64,000 nt of DNA from Octadecabacter arcticus 238 (GTDB lineage Bacteria > Pseudomonadota > Alphaproteobacteria > Rhodobacterales > Rhodobacteraceae). The position numbers and the translations under genes are program-made. The notes under the pieces were generated by a model. That model saw only the letters and a list, made by a program, of their open reading frames with translations, did no database searches and was not told where the DNA came from. Positions 4,907 through 42,513 of this stretch are shown piece after piece (position 1 is the stretch's first letter; each line of letters begins with the position of its first letter). Location: contig NC_020908.1 of NCBI RefSeq assembly GCF_000155735.2, positions 4,959,501-5,023,500 on the forward strand. The letters run 5' to 3'.

Positions 4907-5503
4907 ATGGACAGCAGCACTATCACCGAACAGCTTATGTACCTGGGACGAATTGCGTCAGGTGACGGCCTCGTGGAGGGTTTGACGCCGGGTCAGTGGG
5001 CTATTCTACGATATTTCGCCCACGCTAACCGTTTTTCGCAGACTCCATCTGCGTTTGCTGCGTTTCACGGCACAACCCGAGGCTCGGCCTCCCAAGCTAT
5101 CAAAAGTCTGGTGAAGAAGGGTTATTTGCATCAGGCCCGATCCGAGTCCGACGGACGCAGTGTGCGATTGGGCCTGACGGATAAGGCCGAAGCCATAATC
5201 GGCAACGATCCAATCCAAGCCTTGGTTGAGGCTGTGGAAGCTTTACCTCAAGGCGTACAGGGAGTGTTTTCCAATACTCTACAGCGCATGCTGGGGCGCG
5301 TCGCGCTTGCGACCGGAAAGCCACATTTTGGCGTCTGCGAAAACTGTGCGCATTTCGCTGATAGCGGCTGTTGTGAAGAAGGTTGGCCCAGCCATCTTTG
5401 TAAGTTCCAGAACGAACCGCTTATGAAGGAAGATCTGAACAGACTCTGCATCGATTTCACTCCGGTCAAGCTTGTGCCCAAAGTTGGGCTCGGCTTGCAA
5501 TGA
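4907..5503 (+). CDS. MarR-family regulator with a C-terminal cysteine cluster
   Basis: 198 aa. The N-terminal winged helix spans about residues 15-110 (LTPGQWAILRYFAHANRFSQTPSAFAAFHGTTRGSASQAIKSL..KGY, wing SESDGRSVRLGLTDK). The C-terminal extension is unusual for MarR proteins and carries six cysteines at about 144, 147, 155, 156, 165 and 181 (CENC..CC..C..C), suggesting an Fe-S cluster or zinc site. It is the first gene of a plus-strand cluster with an NADH dehydrogenase, a sulfurtransferase and Fe-S biogenesis genes, and probably regulates it in response to redox or iron (inference). Confidence 0.85.
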   Translation: MDSSTITEQLMYLGRIASGDGLVEGLTPGQWAILRYFAHANRFSQTPSAFAAFHGTTRGSASQAIKSLVKKGYLHQARSESDGRSVRLGLTDKAEAIIGNDPIQALVEAVEALPQGVQGVFSNTLQRMLGRVALATGKPHFGVCENCAHFADSGCCEEGWPSHLCKFQNEPLMKEDLNRLCIDFTPVKLVPKVGLGLQ

Positions 5504-35802: not shown

Positions 35803-37881
35803 ATGTCTGAAATCATTGATAATTGTATCTTGGATCGGCCAACCACAGGTGATCCAGGCAGAACGCTGTTGTGGGTGGATCGATGGGCGGCGCCTCTTTC
35901 TCATAATCCCGAAGCAGTTCTGGAGCTCGTCGACACGCTGTCAGATGTTGACACGGAATGCACCGATGATTGTCTTTCCCTTATCGAGCGCATCTTGGAC
36001 GTGGCGCGTATGAACAATGAAAATGAGGAGCCGGGGGCGAGTCATTTTTTCCAGACCTTGGCGGCGGGCCTCGCAGGGCGGGCTGAGGCGGGTCAGCTTG
36101 GTGCCGAGTCCTGCTTCAGTCTCTGCCAGACCTACCTCCGTGCCGGTCTCACCCCTCCCGACCAGCTGCGCACAGCACCAGACACCCTCGAAGTTCTTGA
36201 ACGGGACGAGATGCCCGAGCTTCCAGACGTCGCGGAGCTCGCGGAAGGGCTTGTCCCTAACGGGGCTACGCCTTTTGAAACCTATAATGCGCTACGTGAA
36301 ATTGCTGGCGCTATGCCGGTACAAATGACAACGGCATTTCTGACGCAGATGATCGGGCAAGGCGATCCACGCATGATTGCCGTGGGGCGGTACTTTCTGC
36401 TCGATCCTGTCGCGGAGATGCGCGATGCGGCCATCACCGGGTTTGGGCTGCTTGCTGAAAGCGCGCATGTGAATGCGGCCTTGCTGTCCGATCTCCTCCT
36501 GATCCGTAACTGGCTGTCAAACGGCGAAGCGCTCGATGCGCTGATCAAGACTGCGCTGCGGCGGGAACCTTCAGGCGGAACTATTCCGCAACCTTGGCAG
36601 CTTCATCGAGTGATGACGTCGCTTCCTGACGGCACCGGCTCGCAAAGCATTATAGGCGTCTGTAGTCGTGGAAGCGCGCGCGCGGTGGCTGCGGCAATGA
36701 TTAAGGAAGGACACGGGATAAAGGACGCTTATGTCATTCCATGTACAAGCAGAGGCGATCAGAAAACCATCGTTGAGCAACTTGAACAAATGATGACGAT
36801 GCATGACGTGTCGCCTTCGTACCTTTCCCCTGCTTTTCGCTGCGCCCTTGGCGACGGGCTGGCGCGCGGTGCAGTGACAGCACCAGGCTTCTTGGATGTC
36901 GCTCCAATGTTCGGTATTGGCGATGTAACGCCACAAACTGGGGGGAATGCGGCGCTTTTCGCGGCGGTTGATCCAGAAGATGAGCTCGCGGCTCTATCAG
37001 ACAATCGCCGGGGCCGGTTAATCAGCAAGAGCAGAGACTGGTTTTCTGAGCATGACATCTCTAGCAGCTGGTTCGTCTCAGATGCCACTTTGATGGAAGC
37101 GCTTGAAGAGGCGTCGACCGTTGCAAGCGCAAAGAAGATCGTCGCGAGTCATCTCCATGAAAGCCGCGACCGCTGGGCAAAACTCTTTGCCCGATCAGCG
37201 CTTATCCTGCGCCATGACTGCAACGCCCCGCCTGACGCGTGGATGAGCTTTGCCGCTCTCGGCCAGGCACTGGAAGATGGACGAGAGATCAAGAACATGC
37301 CCGTCTTTGAGGACATCCTCCGGCAAACGTTGGAGGCCGCAGCGGCGCGCGCACTGGAAGACGATGAAACGGAGTGGGACAATGAAGGTTCCGAGCCGCC
37401 TGACATCGAGCCTGAGCGGAAGGGCGAGTTGGCCAAGTTACTCAAGGGCAGCCCGCTCAACCCGGATCAGATTGATGGCTACCTAACCGCTGTTTTGATC
37501 GCGCCAGAATTCTCATCACCCAATGAGTGGCTAATGCCGCTGATGGACGGAATCGAGGTGAAGGGCCACGGTTCCGTTCAACGTATCTTTGACATCGTTA
37601 TGTTGCGATATGGCGCGCTGAACGAGGCTGTGACCCTCGGCGAGATCGGTGGAGACCTCCGAGACCTGCCCCCGAAACGTTTTCAAGCTTGGACCGAAGG
37701 CTTCGCGCAGGCGGTAGATGGCATCAAGGGTGCTTGGCCGAAAAGAGCACTGAGCCGCGATGACAAACAGGTCCTCAGTATGATCCGAAGCTCCGCCAGT
37801 GATAGTCCAATACCAACCTTGAAGCCGCTCCTGCCCAGCTGGCTCCAGATGACTGCCGTCAAATGGCAGGAAATTTTGTGA
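35803..37881 (+). CDS. Large HEAT-like protein with C-terminal UPF0149 (YecA/YgfB) domain
   Basis: 692 aa with a good GGGAGGG site before ATG 35803. Residues 1-520 are helical and repeat-like without catalytic motifs (for example DAAITGFGLLAESAHVNAAL and PEAVLELVDTLSDVD). An acidic linker (ALEDDETEWDNEGSEPPDIE) leads to residues 540-692: KLLKGSPLNPDQIDGYLTAV, LIAPEFSSPNEWLMPLMDG, the UPF0149 signature, then WTEGFAQAVDG. No signal peptide or membrane segment. UPF0149 proteins are usually about 200 aa; this fusion is much longer. It stands alone between integrase and Tn3 debris. Function unknown. Confidence 0.8.
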   Translation: MSEIIDNCILDRPTTGDPGRTLLWVDRWAAPLSHNPEAVLELVDTLSDVDTECTDDCLSLIERILDVARMNNENEEPGASHFFQTLAAGLAGRAEAGQLGAESCFSLCQTYLRAGLTPPDQLRTAPDTLEVLERDEMPELPDVAELAEGLVPNGATPFETYNALREIAGAMPVQMTTAFLTQMIGQGDPRMIAVGRYFLLDPVAEMRDAAITGFGLLAESAHVNAALLSDLLLIRNWLSNGEALDALIKTALRREPSGGTIPQPWQLHRVMTSLPDGTGSQSIIGVCSRGSARAVAAAMIKEGHGIKDAYVIPCTSRGDQKTIVEQLEQMMTMHDVSPSYLSPAFRCALGDGLARGAVTAPGFLDVAPMFGIGDVTPQTGGNAALFAAVDPEDELAALSDNRRGRLISKSRDWFSEHDISSSWFVSDATLMEALEEASTVASAKKIVASHLHESRDRWAKLFARSALILRHDCNAPPDAWMSFAALGQALEDGREIKNMPVFEDILRQTLEAAAARALEDDETEWDNEGSEPPDIEPERKGELAKLLKGSPLNPDQIDGYLTAVLIAPEFSSPNEWLMPLMDGIEVKGHGSVQRIFDIVMLRYGALNEAVTLGEIGGDLRDLPPKRFQAWTEGFAQAVDGIKGAWPKRALSRDDKQVLSMIRSSASDSPIPTLKPLLPSWLQMTAVKWQEIL

Positions 37882-38866: not shown

Positions 38867-39124
38867 ATGGTTACACTCAATGTCGTACTGACAGAGTCCC
38901 AAGATGAGCTGGTGCAAGGCCTGATTTCGTCGGGACGATACCAAAATGCGAGCGAAGCTCTGCGCGCAGGTTTACGGCTTCTTGAGCGCGAGGAAGCTGG
39001 TTTGATCGAGCTTCGAAATGGATTGCGGCTGGGTCTCGCACAGATCGAATCTGGAGACCTCGCCGAAGGGACCGGGGCCGACGCCATTCGACGTGCCTTT
39101 GGTAAGGGCCGTTCGGGAACTTGA
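38867..39124 (+). CDS. parD: ParD-family antitoxin
   Basis: 85 aa. Ribbon-helix-helix start MVTLNVVLTESQDELVQGLISSGRYQNASEALRAGLRLLEREE, then a toxin-binding tail. Binds its own operator as a dimer and neutralises ParE. Its stop overlaps the toxin start (TTGA). Confidence 0.92.
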   Translation: MVTLNVVLTESQDELVQGLISSGRYQNASEALRAGLRLLEREEAGLIELRNGLRLGLAQIESGDLAEGTGADAIRRAFGKGRSGT

Positions 39125-39459
39125 CCCGTTCATTTAGACTGACAAGGAAGGCTGAAGACAGCTTGGTCGATATCGCGCGTTGGACGATTGAGCAGTTTGG
39201 TGCACGACAGGCCGATCTCTATGAGACCGAACTGGTCGCGAGATGCGAAGCACTTGCGCGCGGTGATGCCGTATCGCGTAGTTGTGCCATCCTTGTCGAT
39301 GACGAAATGGAGTTGCGCTACGTGAGGGCAGGAGAGCATTTTGTCGTATTCTTGGAACGCTCTGCTGAGGTGTTGGTTGTGGATATCTTGCATTCGCGAA
39401 GCGATTTACCCCGCCACATCGCTGCTTTGGGAGCACTCAAAAATGACGGGTCGAACTAG
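39121..39459 (+). CDS. parE: ParE-family toxin
   Basis: 112 aa from TTG 39121. MTRSFRLTRKAEDSLVDIARWTIEQFGARQADLYETELVARCEALA and LRYVRAGEHFVVFLERSAEVLVVDILHSRSDLPRHIAAL are the ParE fold. Family members poison DNA gyrase. Complete, with its antitoxin, so probably active; it may stabilise the adjacent recombinase module. Confidence 0.92.
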   Translation: MTRSFRLTRKAEDSLVDIARWTIEQFGARQADLYETELVARCEALARGDAVSRSCAILVDDEMELRYVRAGEHFVVFLERSAEVLVVDILHSRSDLPRHIAALGALKNDGSN

Positions 39460-39480: not shown

Positions 39481-40578
39481 TTACAGGCCTGCAGCCTTGG
39501 TCAGGTTGACACGGAACCGATCGCGGCGGCGTTGGTAGCGGCGGGTCATCTCGGCTGACGCGTGGCCGAGGTGTTTCTGGACGTAGCGTTCGTCAACTTC
39601 GGCAGAACTCGCGAGGCCGGCGCGCAGGGAGTGGCCCGAGAACAGCGCGATGCGTTCTTTTTCGGGGAGGTGGGACCGGATGCCAGCATCCAGCACTGTT
39701 TGCTTAATGAGCCGCGCGACGTGTTTGTCACTGAGCCGCGCCTCCAGAGCCTTCGTGCAATCACGGGACGTGCGGACGAACACAGGACCAAAACCGATCT
39801 TGGCAAAGTGCAGCCAGTGTTCCAGCGCATGCACAGGGCAGGTCTGGTTGCTCGATCCCCGACCGATTTCCACTTCGCGCCATCCGGTCTTTGCGTTGAG
39901 CGTGAGCAGGGCGCCCTGGTCAAGAATATCAATCCATCCTTCCGAGTCCGGTGTGTCGTCCTTATGGACGTCAAGGCTGACGATCTCGGAACGCCGCAAC
40001 CCGCCCGCATAGCCCAGAAGCAGGATAGACCGATCGCGCAGCCCACGCAGGTCGTAGGGCAGGGTAGCGACCATGGCCAGAATGTCATCGCGTAGGATGG
40101 CTTCTTTCTGCACCGGCGGGCTGGCATGTTTGCGTTTGATCCCGGCCAGTACGGTCGCGATATGGCGATCCTTACGATCAAGGATGATGCCACGTTTCTG
40201 GTATTGCCAGGCGAGACCAGACAGGCGGCGCTCGATCGTACTCACGGACAGGGCTGGGGTCTTGGTATCTGGTGCCGCGCAGTTGGCAATGTAGAGGCCG
40301 ACCAGTTCTGGAGACGGGGGCAGGGGGTCGGCACCACGTCTGCGGCACCAGCTGGAGAAATGAGCCCAGTCCTTCTTATAGGCCTTGTTGGTGTTCTCGG
40401 ACGTCGCTTGGCGGGCATAATCGCGCGCGGTATCGACAAGACGATCGAGGGTGCCCGAGCCAGCGACATGTATGGGAAGGCTGATCCCATCGTTTTTTTC
40501 TTGATCTCTCTCGTCGTCAGGAGCATCGTTGAGCTTATCAGAGTGCGTTAAATGCGATTTTTCGTACATTTTGGTCAT
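39481..40578 (-). CDS. Tyrosine recombinase/integrase
   Basis: 365 aa. SAM-like core-binding domain (ARDYARQATSENTNKAYKKDWAHFSSWCRRRG) and catalytic domain with YAGGLRRSEIVSLD (first R), HSLRAGLASSAEVD (H-x-L-R), KHLGHASAEMTRRYQRR (H and the nucleophile Y). All catalytic residues are present. Divergent from the DUF1403-ScpB-WGR operon across a 155-base gap with inverted repeats, and convergent with parE. It resembles integrase-like proteins of roseobacter plasmids and genomic islands. Confidence 0.92.
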   Translation of the reverse strand: MTKMYEKSHLTHSDKLNDAPDDERDQEKNDGISLPIHVAGSGTLDRLVDTARDYARQATSENTNKAYKKDWAHFSSWCRRRGADPLPPSPELVGLYIANCAAPDTKTPALSVSTIERRLSGLAWQYQKRGIILDRKDRHIATVLAGIKRKHASPPVQKEAILRDDILAMVATLPYDLRGLRDRSILLLGYAGGLRRSEIVSLDVHKDDTPDSEGWIDILDQGALLTLNAKTGWREVEIGRGSSNQTCPVHALEHWLHFAKIGFGPVFVRTSRDCTKALEARLSDKHVARLIKQTVLDAGIRSHLPEKERIALFSGHSLRAGLASSAEVDERYVQKHLGHASAEMTRRYQRRRDRFRVNLTKAAGL

Positions 40579-40656
40579 TTTCCTGAAAATCCACCGATGA
40601 AATGAAACTTTTCATTAGCCTATATTTTTATGTCCGATAATGCAAACTTATTGGAC
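40577..40656. promoter_or_regulatory. Inverted repeats between the recombinase and the DUF1403 operon
   Basis: ATTTTC-CT-GAAAAT at 40577-40590, covering the recombinase start, and GTCCGATAA (40632-40640) with TTATTGGAC (40648-40656), one mismatch and a 7-base spacer. Either could be an operator for one of the two divergent genes or, given the recombinase, part of a recombination site. Confidence 0.45.
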
Positions 40657-40734
40657 GTAACTTCCTACAGCATGCTACGGCGGTTTTAGTGGTAATTTCT
40701 GGTATTAAGCGCCGTTATGGTTTAGGCTTCGGGT

Positions 40735-41637
40735 ATGACATCCAATCTGAACATGCATGACACTGCTGCAGAAACAGTATCCCATATGCCGGCTTGGGTC
40801 ACCTCTGCACGCGCGCAGGTCCTTGAAGATGTGGCGTTTTTGTCAGGGGCCGCACTCGCAACACTGCAACTCGTGCTAGGTCGTCAAGACGTGCCTCAGA
40901 CCTTGCTGCGCGCCCGTTTGGCGTTGTCTGCAGCTGAGGCCTGCGTGGCCTTTTCGGGCCGTCCAGAACGGGCAAGGGATCTACGCGACGCGGTGCACTT
41001 GCTGCGACCTGGCGATTTACCCGGGCCAGCAGGCGAGGTCTACCTGTGCTGGCAGCGCGCGGTTGAGCGGCCTGTTTCAATCAAGGCGTTGCACCGGGCT
41101 TTGCCACTGCAGTCGCCAGATAAGATTGCCCGTTGGCTTGATGCGCCCAGCACGAGCCTTGCCCGCACGCCGATCGCGCAGGCAACGCAGGTGCTGGAGG
41201 CAGTTTTGACCCAAAGCTCGCGCGCAGAAATGTCAGGCCTGATCCTTGCAGATGCGGCGCTGTCAAAGGCCTTAGGCTGGGGCCATATCGTGCCGCTCCT
41301 CGCGTCAGGTTTAAAGCGCAGCGATTTGCGTAAACGAGGCGATGACCTGCGGCTTGCCTGTCATCGGGCGGTGACTGCATGCGCCGCAGACGCTGTGCGG
41401 ACGGCGAACGATCTTGCACAGAGGACTGCGCGCTTGAACGCCGTCGCGCCCAAGCTGCGGGCGAAGGGGGCAGGTGCTGCGCTCGCGTTGTTCCTGACGT
41501 TGGACGCGGTGACACCTGCTGCGTTGTCATCGCTCAACTCGGATCGCGCGGCGCGGCGGTTTTGTGACCGGCTCTTCGGACTAGGGGCCATACGTGAATT
41601 GACGGGGCGTGACACGTTCCGCCTGTACGGGGTCTGA
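40735..41637 (+). CDS. DUF1403 family protein
   Basis: 300 aa, typical length. Recognised by PAWVTSARAQVLEDVAFLSGAALATLQLVL, RARLALSAAEACVAFSGRPERARDLRDAVHLLRPGDLPGPAGEV, KALHRALPL, GLKRSDLRKRGDDLRLACHRAV, VAPKLRAKGAGAALALFL and the end GAIRELTGRDTFRLYG. All-helical, soluble, no known catalytic motif; the family is uncharacterised. First gene of a three-gene operon with an ScpB-like and a WGR protein; the stop is one base before the next ATG. Confidence 0.88.
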   Translation: MTSNLNMHDTAAETVSHMPAWVTSARAQVLEDVAFLSGAALATLQLVLGRQDVPQTLLRARLALSAAEACVAFSGRPERARDLRDAVHLLRPGDLPGPAGEVYLCWQRAVERPVSIKALHRALPLQSPDKIARWLDAPSTSLARTPIAQATQVLEAVLTQSSRAEMSGLILADAALSKALGWGHIVPLLASGLKRSDLRKRGDDLRLACHRAVTACAADAVRTANDLAQRTARLNAVAPKLRAKGAGAALALFLTLDAVTPAALSSLNSDRAARRFCDRLFGLGAIRELTGRDTFRLYGV

Positions 41638-41638
41638 T

Positions 41639-42238
41639 ATGGCAAAGGATAGCCCCGATCTTGATCGTGAGTTGATCGACCTGCCACCCGAGTTGCGTTG
41701 GCGGGAATGGATGCGGCGGGTTGAGGCGGTTCTGTTTGCCAGCGCGTCGCCAGTTTCGCGCGATGCTCTGGGACGCGTCGTGGGGCAGGCGGCCTCGGTC
41801 GATCTGCTGGTTGAAGATCTATCAGCAGAGCTCGCGGAACGTTCCTATGAAATCGCCTGCGTCGCGGACGCTTGGATGTTGCGCACCCGCACGGCTTACG
41901 CACCGGTAATCCGAGCAGCTGCCAACGTGAGTGACCAAGCGCTAGACCTCAGTGAGTTCGATGTCGCGGTGCTCGCCGCCGTCGCCTATCACCAGCCGGT
42001 CACCCGTGACGGGCTCAAGGATATATTTGGCAAAGAAATTAGTCGTGATCTGATTGGGCGTCTGCACGTGCGAAAATTGATCGCGACGGGTCCCCGTAGC
42101 CCTCGACGGGGTGCGCCCTACACGTTCGTAACGACGCAACAGTTCCTCTTAGCCTTTGATTTGGAAAGCCTGCGGGACCTTCCAGATCGCGAGCAGCTGG
42201 ACGATGCTGGGATCGTTGGGACGCCGATGGCGCAATGA
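41639..42238 (+). CDS. ScpB-like (SMC-Scp) winged-helix protein
   Basis: 199 aa from ATG 41639. RRVEAVLFASASPVSRDALGRVV..AASVDLLVEDLSAEL..SYEIACVADAWMLRTRTAYAPVI is the first winged helix, and LDLSEFDVAVLAAVAYHQPVTRDGLKDIFGKEISRDLIGRLHVRKLIATG..RRGAPYTFVTT the second, as in ScpB/MukE-type KITE proteins that bind kleisin in condensin complexes. The housekeeping scpB normally neighbours scpA; here it sits instead between DUF1403 and WGR, so it is a paralogue of unknown job. Confidence 0.87.
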   Translation: MAKDSPDLDRELIDLPPELRWREWMRRVEAVLFASASPVSRDALGRVVGQAASVDLLVEDLSAELAERSYEIACVADAWMLRTRTAYAPVIRAAANVSDQALDLSEFDVAVLAAVAYHQPVTRDGLKDIFGKEISRDLIGRLHVRKLIATGPRSPRRGAPYTFVTTQQFLLAFDLESLRDLPDREQLDDAGIVGTPMAQ

Positions 42239-42513
42239 GGATAAATGATACATCTCTGGATTTTCAGGTTTGCCTTGAGAAGATCAATCACATCAAGCGG
42301 CAGCGCCGGTTCTATCTGCTGGGCGTCATGCGCACATTGTTTGGCGAATGGTGCCTTGTCCGGGAATGGGGACGCATTGGCGCGGCGGGTGGTCAGAGCA
42401 AGAGAACTTACTTTGCATCGCGTCAGGATTGCGAAGCGGAATTGCAAAAGATCAAATCAACCAAAGCCAGGCGGGGCTATGCCACGATCCCAATTCAGCT
42501 CGAGCTGTTTTGA
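42235..42513 (+). CDS. WGR-domain protein
   Basis: 92 aa, overlapping the scpB-like stop by 4 bases. INHIKRQRRFYLLGVMRTLFGEWCLVREWGRIGAAGGQSKRTYFASRQDCEAELQKI..TKARRGY is a lone WGR domain (signature here WGRIG), the nucleic-acid- or protein-binding module seen in PARPs and bacterial MolR-type proteins. No catalytic partner domain. The IS6 element follows 23 bases downstream, so the operon may originally have been longer. Confidence 0.88.
   Translation: MRINDTSLDFQVCLEKINHIKRQRRFYLLGVMRTLFGEWCLVREWGRIGAAGGQSKRTYFASRQDCEAELQKIKSTKARRGYATIPIQLELF

Follow-up and report, generated by a model that had tools for sequence, protein, structure and literature searches.

A candidate site-specific recombination module with a linked DUF1403-ScpB gene pair in the backbone of alphaproteobacterial plasmids

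A 64,000-nucleotide stretch of Octadecabacter arcticus 238 (C1:4959501-5023500 of a genome of three contigs and 5,478,249 bases; here called the window) carries a Cre/Xer-like tyrosine recombinase gene that diverges from genes for a DUF1403 protein and an ScpB-like protein, with a short inverted repeat, the core site, in the gap. We hold with moderate confidence that these parts make up a module for site-specific recombination that belongs to the backbone of alphaproteobacterial plasmids, those of repABC type and some others, that it would resolve plasmid multimers at the core with DUF1403 and ScpB as helpers, and that the copy in the window is stranded in the chromosome. By comparative sequence analysis we show the linkage of the genes, two inverted repeats between them, and a signature of DNA exchange at the core.

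The recombinase gene (39481 to 40578, minus strand, 365 amino acids; PF00589, 56.6 bits) and the DUF1403 gene (40735 to 41637, plus strand; PF07183, 286.5 bits) enclose both inverted repeats, which the initial annotation had passed over although its gene content for the region was right. The first (40628 to 40660, no strand) is a candidate recombination core site of 33 bp, with 13-bp arms TTATGTCCGATAA and TTATTGGACGTAA around the 7-bp spacer TGCAAAC. The second (40679 to 40713, no strand; GGCGGTTT and TAAGCGCC separated by N19) is a candidate operator or accessory site of DUF1403 and ScpB. The ScpB-like gene (41639 to 42238, plus strand; PF04079, 111 bits), for a double winged-helix (KITE-type) protein of a plasmid clade, has its ATG 1 base past the DUF1403 stop. 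It is followed by a gene for a lone WGR-domain protein (42235 to 42513, plus strand; PF05406, 63 bits), the start of which overlaps the end of the ScpB-like gene by 4 bases (ATGA), and the recombinase diverges from all three genes (40735 to 42513).

Linkage was assessed in the best 80 of 532 confirmed genome loci, which are closest relatives, mostly Roseobacter-type and non-independent, some of them cut off by a contig end short of 10 kb. ScpB lay within 1 kb of DUF1403 in all 80 loci, and a tyrosine recombinase lay within 10 kb in 68 and within 1 kb in 61. Replication genes were also found within 10 kb of DUF1403 (RepA in 65 loci, RepB in 64, and RepC in 49). A serine recombinase was near DUF1403 in 24 loci, most often in the interval that separates the rep genes from the tyrosine recombinase; RinQ, as cited in the pertinent part of PMC10194956, is a serine recombinase of the kind found beside repABC. 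The initial annotation had proposed DUF1403, ScpB, and WGR as a mobile trio. Its DUF1403-ScpB part was conserved, WGR was not a core member (4 of the 80 loci had it at 10 kb or less from DUF1403), and instead of a free mobile unit we found plasmid backbone near replication genes. As judged from gene linkage, the conserved unit is DUF1403-ScpB, usually with a divergent recombinase and near repA, and both WGR and parDE are optional.

The same unit was searched for in a collection of 72,556 plasmid records, the whole block by blastn and DUF1403 by tblastn. The block matched 783 records (120 with at least 80% coverage), and DUF1403 matched 624 (500 with at least 80% coverage); on these matches, the occurrence of the block on plasmids is far beyond chance. 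The ten commonest genus names shown among the DUF1403 records are ones that we take to be Rhodobacterales or Rhizobiales. DUF1403 was followed by ScpB in 13 of 13 annotated plasmids, including one (L032; loci are given as L plus a number) in which both genes are annotated as "hypothetical" and were assigned by alignment. Gene order is repABC-parDE-recombinase/DUF1403-ScpB in Sulfitobacter faviae and repABC-toxin-antitoxin-serine recombinase-recombinase/DUF1403-ScpB-WGR-Fic in Dinoroseobacter pDSHI03. Further carriers are pRL10, a Bradyrhizobium plasmid, pTi15955, and the Ruegeria TM1040 megaplasmid, the last with a replicase of another type. DUF1403 was detected in 12 of 61 genomes of the family, 11 of them over the cut-off, and these 11 also contained a second class of ScpB (103 to 123 bits, versus 154 to 172 bits for housekeeping ScpB). 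Second-class ScpB occurred without DUF1403 in two of the 61 genomes, as a full-length protein in G015 and as a fragment in G044. In a class-wide sample, only 1 of 115 genomes, O. arcticus 238 itself, contained DUF1403; because of this difference from the family, the distribution of DUF1403 is patchy in the genomes sampled.

Alignment of the intergenic regions placed the block with many columns of at least 95% identity at the core, TTATGTCCGATAA-TGCAAAC-TTATTGGACRTAA (window positions 40628 to 40660). At nine mismatches or fewer the core was found in 75 of 80 loci and was missing in L037 (contig edge), L073, L090, L101, and L107; by eye, it is shortened in L090, and L073 and L101 retain the right arm only. 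The arms are altered together in rhizobial cores (GAACGATAA-N7-TTATCGTTC in pRL10 and GACCGATAA-N7-TTATCGGTC in Bradyrhizobium). Among 30 chosen sites, 29 of them distinct, 88.3% of cells were complementary when G-T was read as standard, compared to 29 to 41% when the arms were slid, and 5 of 13 positions were changed on both sides. Relative to shuffles, the pair types were not exceptional (246 of 500) and pairs with double changes were mildly so (28 of 500). The core pattern at one mismatch or fewer was present in 11 of the 61 family genomes, while the reversed pattern was present in none of the 61. Judged by coordinates, the core neighbours a DUF1403 match in all of these genomes but G026 (10 of 11), where DUF1403 is missing and the core has repABC and a broken recombinase next to it.

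DNA exchange was examined by comparing identity to the left and right of the core in 380-bp windows, and pairs of loci with at least 95% identity on one side and less than 80% on the other were scored as exchange pairs. Identities on the two sides were nearly uncoupled across the core (r = 0.26; 85 loci, 3570 pairs). In 81 loci, 22 of 3240 pairs were exchange pairs at the core, compared to 1, 0, 6, 4, 2, and 2 of 3240 at control offsets of −900, −600, −300, +300, +600, and +900. The left-right correlation was 0.25 at the core and 0.66, 0.72, 0.51, 0.51, 0.70, and 0.58 at the controls from −900 to +900. Base-level views of 26 pairs from the 85-locus set revealed 16 with at most three shared-side mismatches in 70 bp by the centre, and in those 16 the other side dropped to background within or just past the 33 bp. 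Several of the 26 pairs have a haplotype in common (L057 and L116 resemble each other at this locus). Tract-end mapping yielded 180 sharp ends, 21 of them in the 50-bp bin of the core. After pairs sharing loci were merged, 10 of 66 breakpoint clusters fell in the core bin and 5 in the next, versus about 1.1 per average 50-bp bin elsewhere.

The cleanest case comes from two complete plasmids, Sulfitobacter faviae NZ_CP139729 and Sulfitobacter sp. NZ_CP136691 (L019 and L022), which are identical at 5494 of 5499 positions on the left, the replication and recombinase side, and at 1333 of 1594 on the right, the DUF1403 side. L100 and L105 display the opposite pattern (1595 of 1600 on the right, 3407 of 4460 on the left). 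Two other pairs are less clean: L022 and L080 over distance (1487 of 1600 on the right, 3860 of 4770 on the left), and L066 and L106, close on the left near the core only (3817 of 4708 on the left, 1141 of 1523 on the right). Judged by these breakpoints, the core between recombinase and DUF1403 is a point of repeated DNA exchange between plasmids, and we propose it as the crossover site of the recombinase, probably for plasmid multimer resolution. The recombinase would bind the 13-bp arms and exchange strands in the 7-bp spacer, which would return plasmid multimers to monomers, and occasional crosses between differing plasmids would leave the mosaic pattern.

Several observations weigh against a crossover at the core. 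Ten of the 26 pairs had at least five shared-side mismatches within 70 bp (including L041/L045, L081/L099, and L062/L080), so that in these pairs the break does not coincide sharply with the core. Windows of 150 bp, which are noisier than those of 380 bp, gave secondary peaks at +420 (48/97) and −240 (37/75) compared to 49/76 at the core, and raw tract ends also accumulated at +800 to +900 (35 ends, 4 clusters). NZ_CP087085 (197,672 bp; L113 and L114) is a natural Pseudosulfitobacter cointegrate of an 87-kb and a 110-kb plasmid type, apparently those of NZ_CP087052 and NZ_CP087053, and its junction lies inside a shared Mu-type (Tni) transposase gene 4 to 5 kb from the core: informative positions map the switch between 501 and 1250 of L113, in which the core is at about 5,330. 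The one cointegrate examined, joined in the transposase gene, counts against a simple claim that cointegrates form at the core. Its two spacers differ (TGCAAAC and TGCAAGA), and recombination between these two cores is therefore not expected. Lastly, of the eight loci that lack a recombinase and extend 3 kb or more upstream, six retained the core, and because of this the core may also serve DUF1403 expression.

These retained cores are among the points that favor an operator, one of the two strongest rivals to the proposed module. On that account the 33-bp repeat would be bound by the recombinase, DUF1403, or ScpB as the operator of two divergent promoters, and the mosaicism would come from homologous recombination and replicon shuffling. 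The position of the core between divergent genes fits, as does the DUF1403 start codon (ATG, GTG, or TTG), which in 82 of 88 loci lies at exactly +91 relative to the core centre. Breakpoints, however, concentrate at the core and not at controls 300 to 900 bp away (less clearly in 150-bp windows), and the core stays with the recombinase where DUF1403 is lost (L149) or lies 2.4 kb off (L111). The second repeat is also a better operator candidate. We regard an operator-only core as rather improbable. A dual site, both crossover and operator, is compatible with the proposed module; RP4 parCBA has such an arrangement: according to the relevant part of PMC6312765, its resolution site also falls within the region that regulates the parCBA genes.

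The second repeat was located by the loose pattern GGCGnTTn-N-nAAnCGCC, which in 82 of 88 loci fell at +35 to +70 relative to the core centre, with the position exact in 80. The centres of the two repeats are about 52 bp, or some five helical turns, apart. By eye, the second repeat is present upstream of DUF1403 in all five inspected loci with core and recombinase absent or displaced (L101, L107, L111, L151, and L030, from Beijerinckia). It is perfect in L151 (TGCGGCGCTTTG and CAAAGCGCCGCA) and imperfect in L101 and L107, and it persists beside the core in L149, where DUF1403 is lost. As with the core, the rhizobial form is altered in both arms (GTGCGGTTAT and TAAACCGCAC in pRL10). We infer that the second repeat is a candidate site at which DUF1403 and/or ScpB bind and which also serves as an operator. 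The two proteins might bind it jointly and repress their own promoter, and they might also act as accessory proteins that favor intramolecular recombination, by analogy with cer- and psi-type sites; both steps are less sure than strand exchange at the core.

The recombinase contains R195, K230, H316, R319, H339, and Y348, invariant in 11 aligned sequences, which correspond to the catalytic R-K-H-R-H/W-Y set of the family. All nine sequences that it matched in the PDB at an E value of at most 1e−3 were Cre, and it fell far below the NCBIfam equivalog cut-offs for XerC (49.3 versus 335.15 bits) and XerD (43.1 versus 329.6 bits). The initial annotation had suggested integration or dimer resolution; our results make this more precise: recombination would be site-specific, at a defined position that in most cases is close to repABC. 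The module resembles Xer/dif and Cre/lox in having an RKHRHY recombinase with a short, two-arm inverted site beside its gene. The spacer is 6 bp in dif and 8 bp in lox, whereas it is 7 bp here, and the linked DUF1403-ScpB pair, the second repeat, and the failure to classify as XerC or XerD also set the module apart. With cer/psi and RP4 parCBA the module shares a plasmid backbone location and proposed accessory proteins. Host XerCD with PepA/ArgR/ArcA serves cer and psi, and parCBA employs a serine resolvase; the candidate helpers here, in contrast, are plasmid encoded, DUF1403 and a KITE-type protein. According to the part of PMC6312765 that concerns them, cer and psi are cis sites only.

On rhizobial plasmids, a Cre-like "XerD" recombinase and toxin-antitoxin genes are conserved after repABC, and dimer resolution has been suggested, in sections of PMC10194956 that also list the two coding sequences following this block as "hypothetical." Those sections mention no site, DUF1403, ScpB, or recombination evidence for the block, and the term ScpB occurs 0 times in the paper. 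The relevant parts of PMC5613091, PMC12153318, PMC6312765, PMC13342612, PMC3794950, and PMC6090056 contain nothing on the module, and a term search gave no occurrence in PMC9025767. Searches limited to open-access PMC papers yielded no description of DUF1403 or of the core site and no paper on an ScpB or Fic domain in a repABC or Ti plasmid context.

The predicted fold of DUF1403 is Fic-like with a C-terminal winged helix, and Fic chains were the best matches in a fold search. DUF1403 occupies the place of scpA upstream of scpB, and a kleisin was considered for this reason; the idea was dropped because the fold search returned Fic chains, in a match list from which absence excludes nothing. 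Fic proteins with a C-terminal winged helix are known (SoFic, 3eqx; 12% identity to DUF1403), but the Fic motif HPFx(D/E)GNGRxxR is absent in DUF1403, the motif region aligning to nonmatching residues in an alignment that is not significant. No Pfam Fic (PF02661) match was listed for 12 DUF1403 members at an E value of at most 5, a range in which HMMER filters drop most matches above about 0.1.

The ScpB-like protein scored over the cut-off for PF04079, matched ScpB in the PDB with an E value of 1e−20, and shares the C-terminal stretch "TT..FL..FGL.SL.DLP" with solved ScpB; the cut-off of TIGR00281 was not reached (80.1 versus 89.2 bits). A tree of 63 ScpB rows parted 32 plasmid-type from 31 housekeeping proteins by a 100/100 branch present in 100% of 200 bootstrap trees. 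The plasmid-type rows were 3 copies from the O. arcticus 238 genome, 11 from plasmid records, 4 from other genome loci, and 14 from the 80 loci. Thus, the separate clade anticipated for this ScpB was recovered. The protein has PF04079 in common with ScpB of SMC-ScpAB and differs by its clade, its score below TIGR00281, and its partner, DUF1403 instead of ScpA.

The other strong rival starts from this ScpB: DUF1403-ScpB would serve as an adaptor, specific to the plasmid, by which host SMC-ScpA condensin is brought to the replication and resolution locus, with the recombinase as an independent neighbour. The separate clade and the C-terminal stretch agree with this, and so does the genome, in which a single ScpA was detected, beside housekeeping ScpB, such that any ScpA partner would be the host's. 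No SMC or ScpA is named around DUF1403 in the gene tables of the 13 annotated plasmids, which are incomplete and include AAA-type ATPases for L024 and L022, and DUF1403 resembles Fic chains, not a kleisin. We judge the adaptor unlikely, and the role in DNA topology that had been suggested for the trio received no direct evidence of condensin-type work. An anti-phage defence system was likewise rejected, as PADLOC models gave no match for the recombinase, DUF1403, ScpB, or WGR at an E value of at most 0.01.

We infer that DUF1403 and ScpB are accessory and regulatory proteins of the core, their accessory action being proposed by analogy. Counting against this assignment are a profile comparison of DUF1403 with Fic (hhalign) that was not significant (2.5%) and a poor AlphaFold model of ScpB (predicted local distance difference test score, 57), of which the C-terminal half alone was used. 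More speculatively, and with low probability in our view, the module could be a resolution system of new design. A Fic-fold DNA-binding protein without the motif and a dedicated KITE protein (ScpB) would together make up a plasmid-encoded accessory complex, set in constant helical phase relative to the crossover site, and the KITE protein would couple recombination to the loading of host SMC-ScpA, making monomerisation and segregation one event at the replication and partition locus.

The O. arcticus 238 genome contains four ScpB copies. The best (163.7 bits) adjoins the only ScpA match, so that the second scpB next to scpA, for which the initial annotation had proposed a check, is present, and no second ScpA was found in the genome; the other three scored 109 to 112 bits. 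DUF1403 is present as the window copy, a C-terminal half at C1:4438017, and an N-terminal scrap on C2. The core pattern with up to two mismatches occurs only at C1:5000132, in the window, and at C2:7523, both exact. The latter belongs to a decayed second copy (C2:3500-13500, L018, on a 118-kb contig) in which a perfect core at L018:4020-4052 and the second repeat are followed by about 50 codons from the start of DUF1403 and then by unrelated DNA; no recombinase match was found within this 10-kb stretch. In the genome, repC was found on C3 only. The top recombinase match listed among plasmid records is that of Octadecabacter sp. SW4 pow42 (83%).

A tyrosine recombinase and chromosomal copies would also fit a further reading, in which the recombinase acts as an integrase and the whole block travels as one small integrative element. 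The nearness of RepA (10 kb or less in 65 of 80 loci) argues against this, as do the chromosomal copies themselves: in two of the three with plasmid-type ScpB (C1:4437463, L012, and C1:4499363, L013), DUF1403 is truncated or missing, with insertion sequence (IS) elements around. Moreover, the core at one mismatch or fewer occurred at most once per contig in the 61 family genomes, which therefore contain no paired att-like copies. We consider an integrative element highly improbable; the window copy, which lies among IS elements, is more probably a piece of plasmid backbone in the chromosome. A Fic-like gene lies 3′ of the ScpB remnant at C1:4499363.

Beside the recombinase in the window are genes for a parD-type antitoxin (38867 to 39124, plus strand; PF03693, 44.3 bits) and a parE-type toxin (39121 to 39459, plus strand; PF05016, 45 bits). 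With these, the layout in the initial annotation, a recombinase diverging from DUF1403, ScpB-like, and WGR genes joined by a 1-base gap and a 4-base overlap, was borne out by Pfam and by the sequence. Both toxin-antitoxin genes are optional neighbours, 13 of the 80 loci having parD, and 13 parE, at 10 kb or less from DUF1403. Upstream of parDE is a gene for a 692-amino-acid protein with a UPF0149 domain at its C terminus (35803 to 37881, plus strand), and transposase genes flank the locus on either side. A Fic match was found within 10 kb of DUF1403 in 10 of 80 loci, and Fic genes with an intact HPFxDGNGR motif often lie 3′ of ScpB(-WGR), as in L020, L021, L152, L153, and others. WGR is an optional passenger 3′ of ScpB. 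Three more lone WGR proteins are encoded in the genome (C2:109148, C1:4523160, and C3:81922), and the stretches around them had no match to DUF1403, ScpB, or the recombinase; these genes are thus consistent with WGR being an independent small gene.

Symbiosis plasmids, Ti plasmids, and plasmids of marine Roseobacter are among the repABC replicons, and the module probably aids the clean inheritance of large plasmids. If the proposed function is true, it would explain how low-copy megaplasmids are kept monomeric and why a single point serves for the exchange of replication backbone and cargo. It would also give a testable role to DUF1403 and to a large clade of ScpB proteins that are automatically annotated as condensin ("SMC-Scp complex subunit ScpB").

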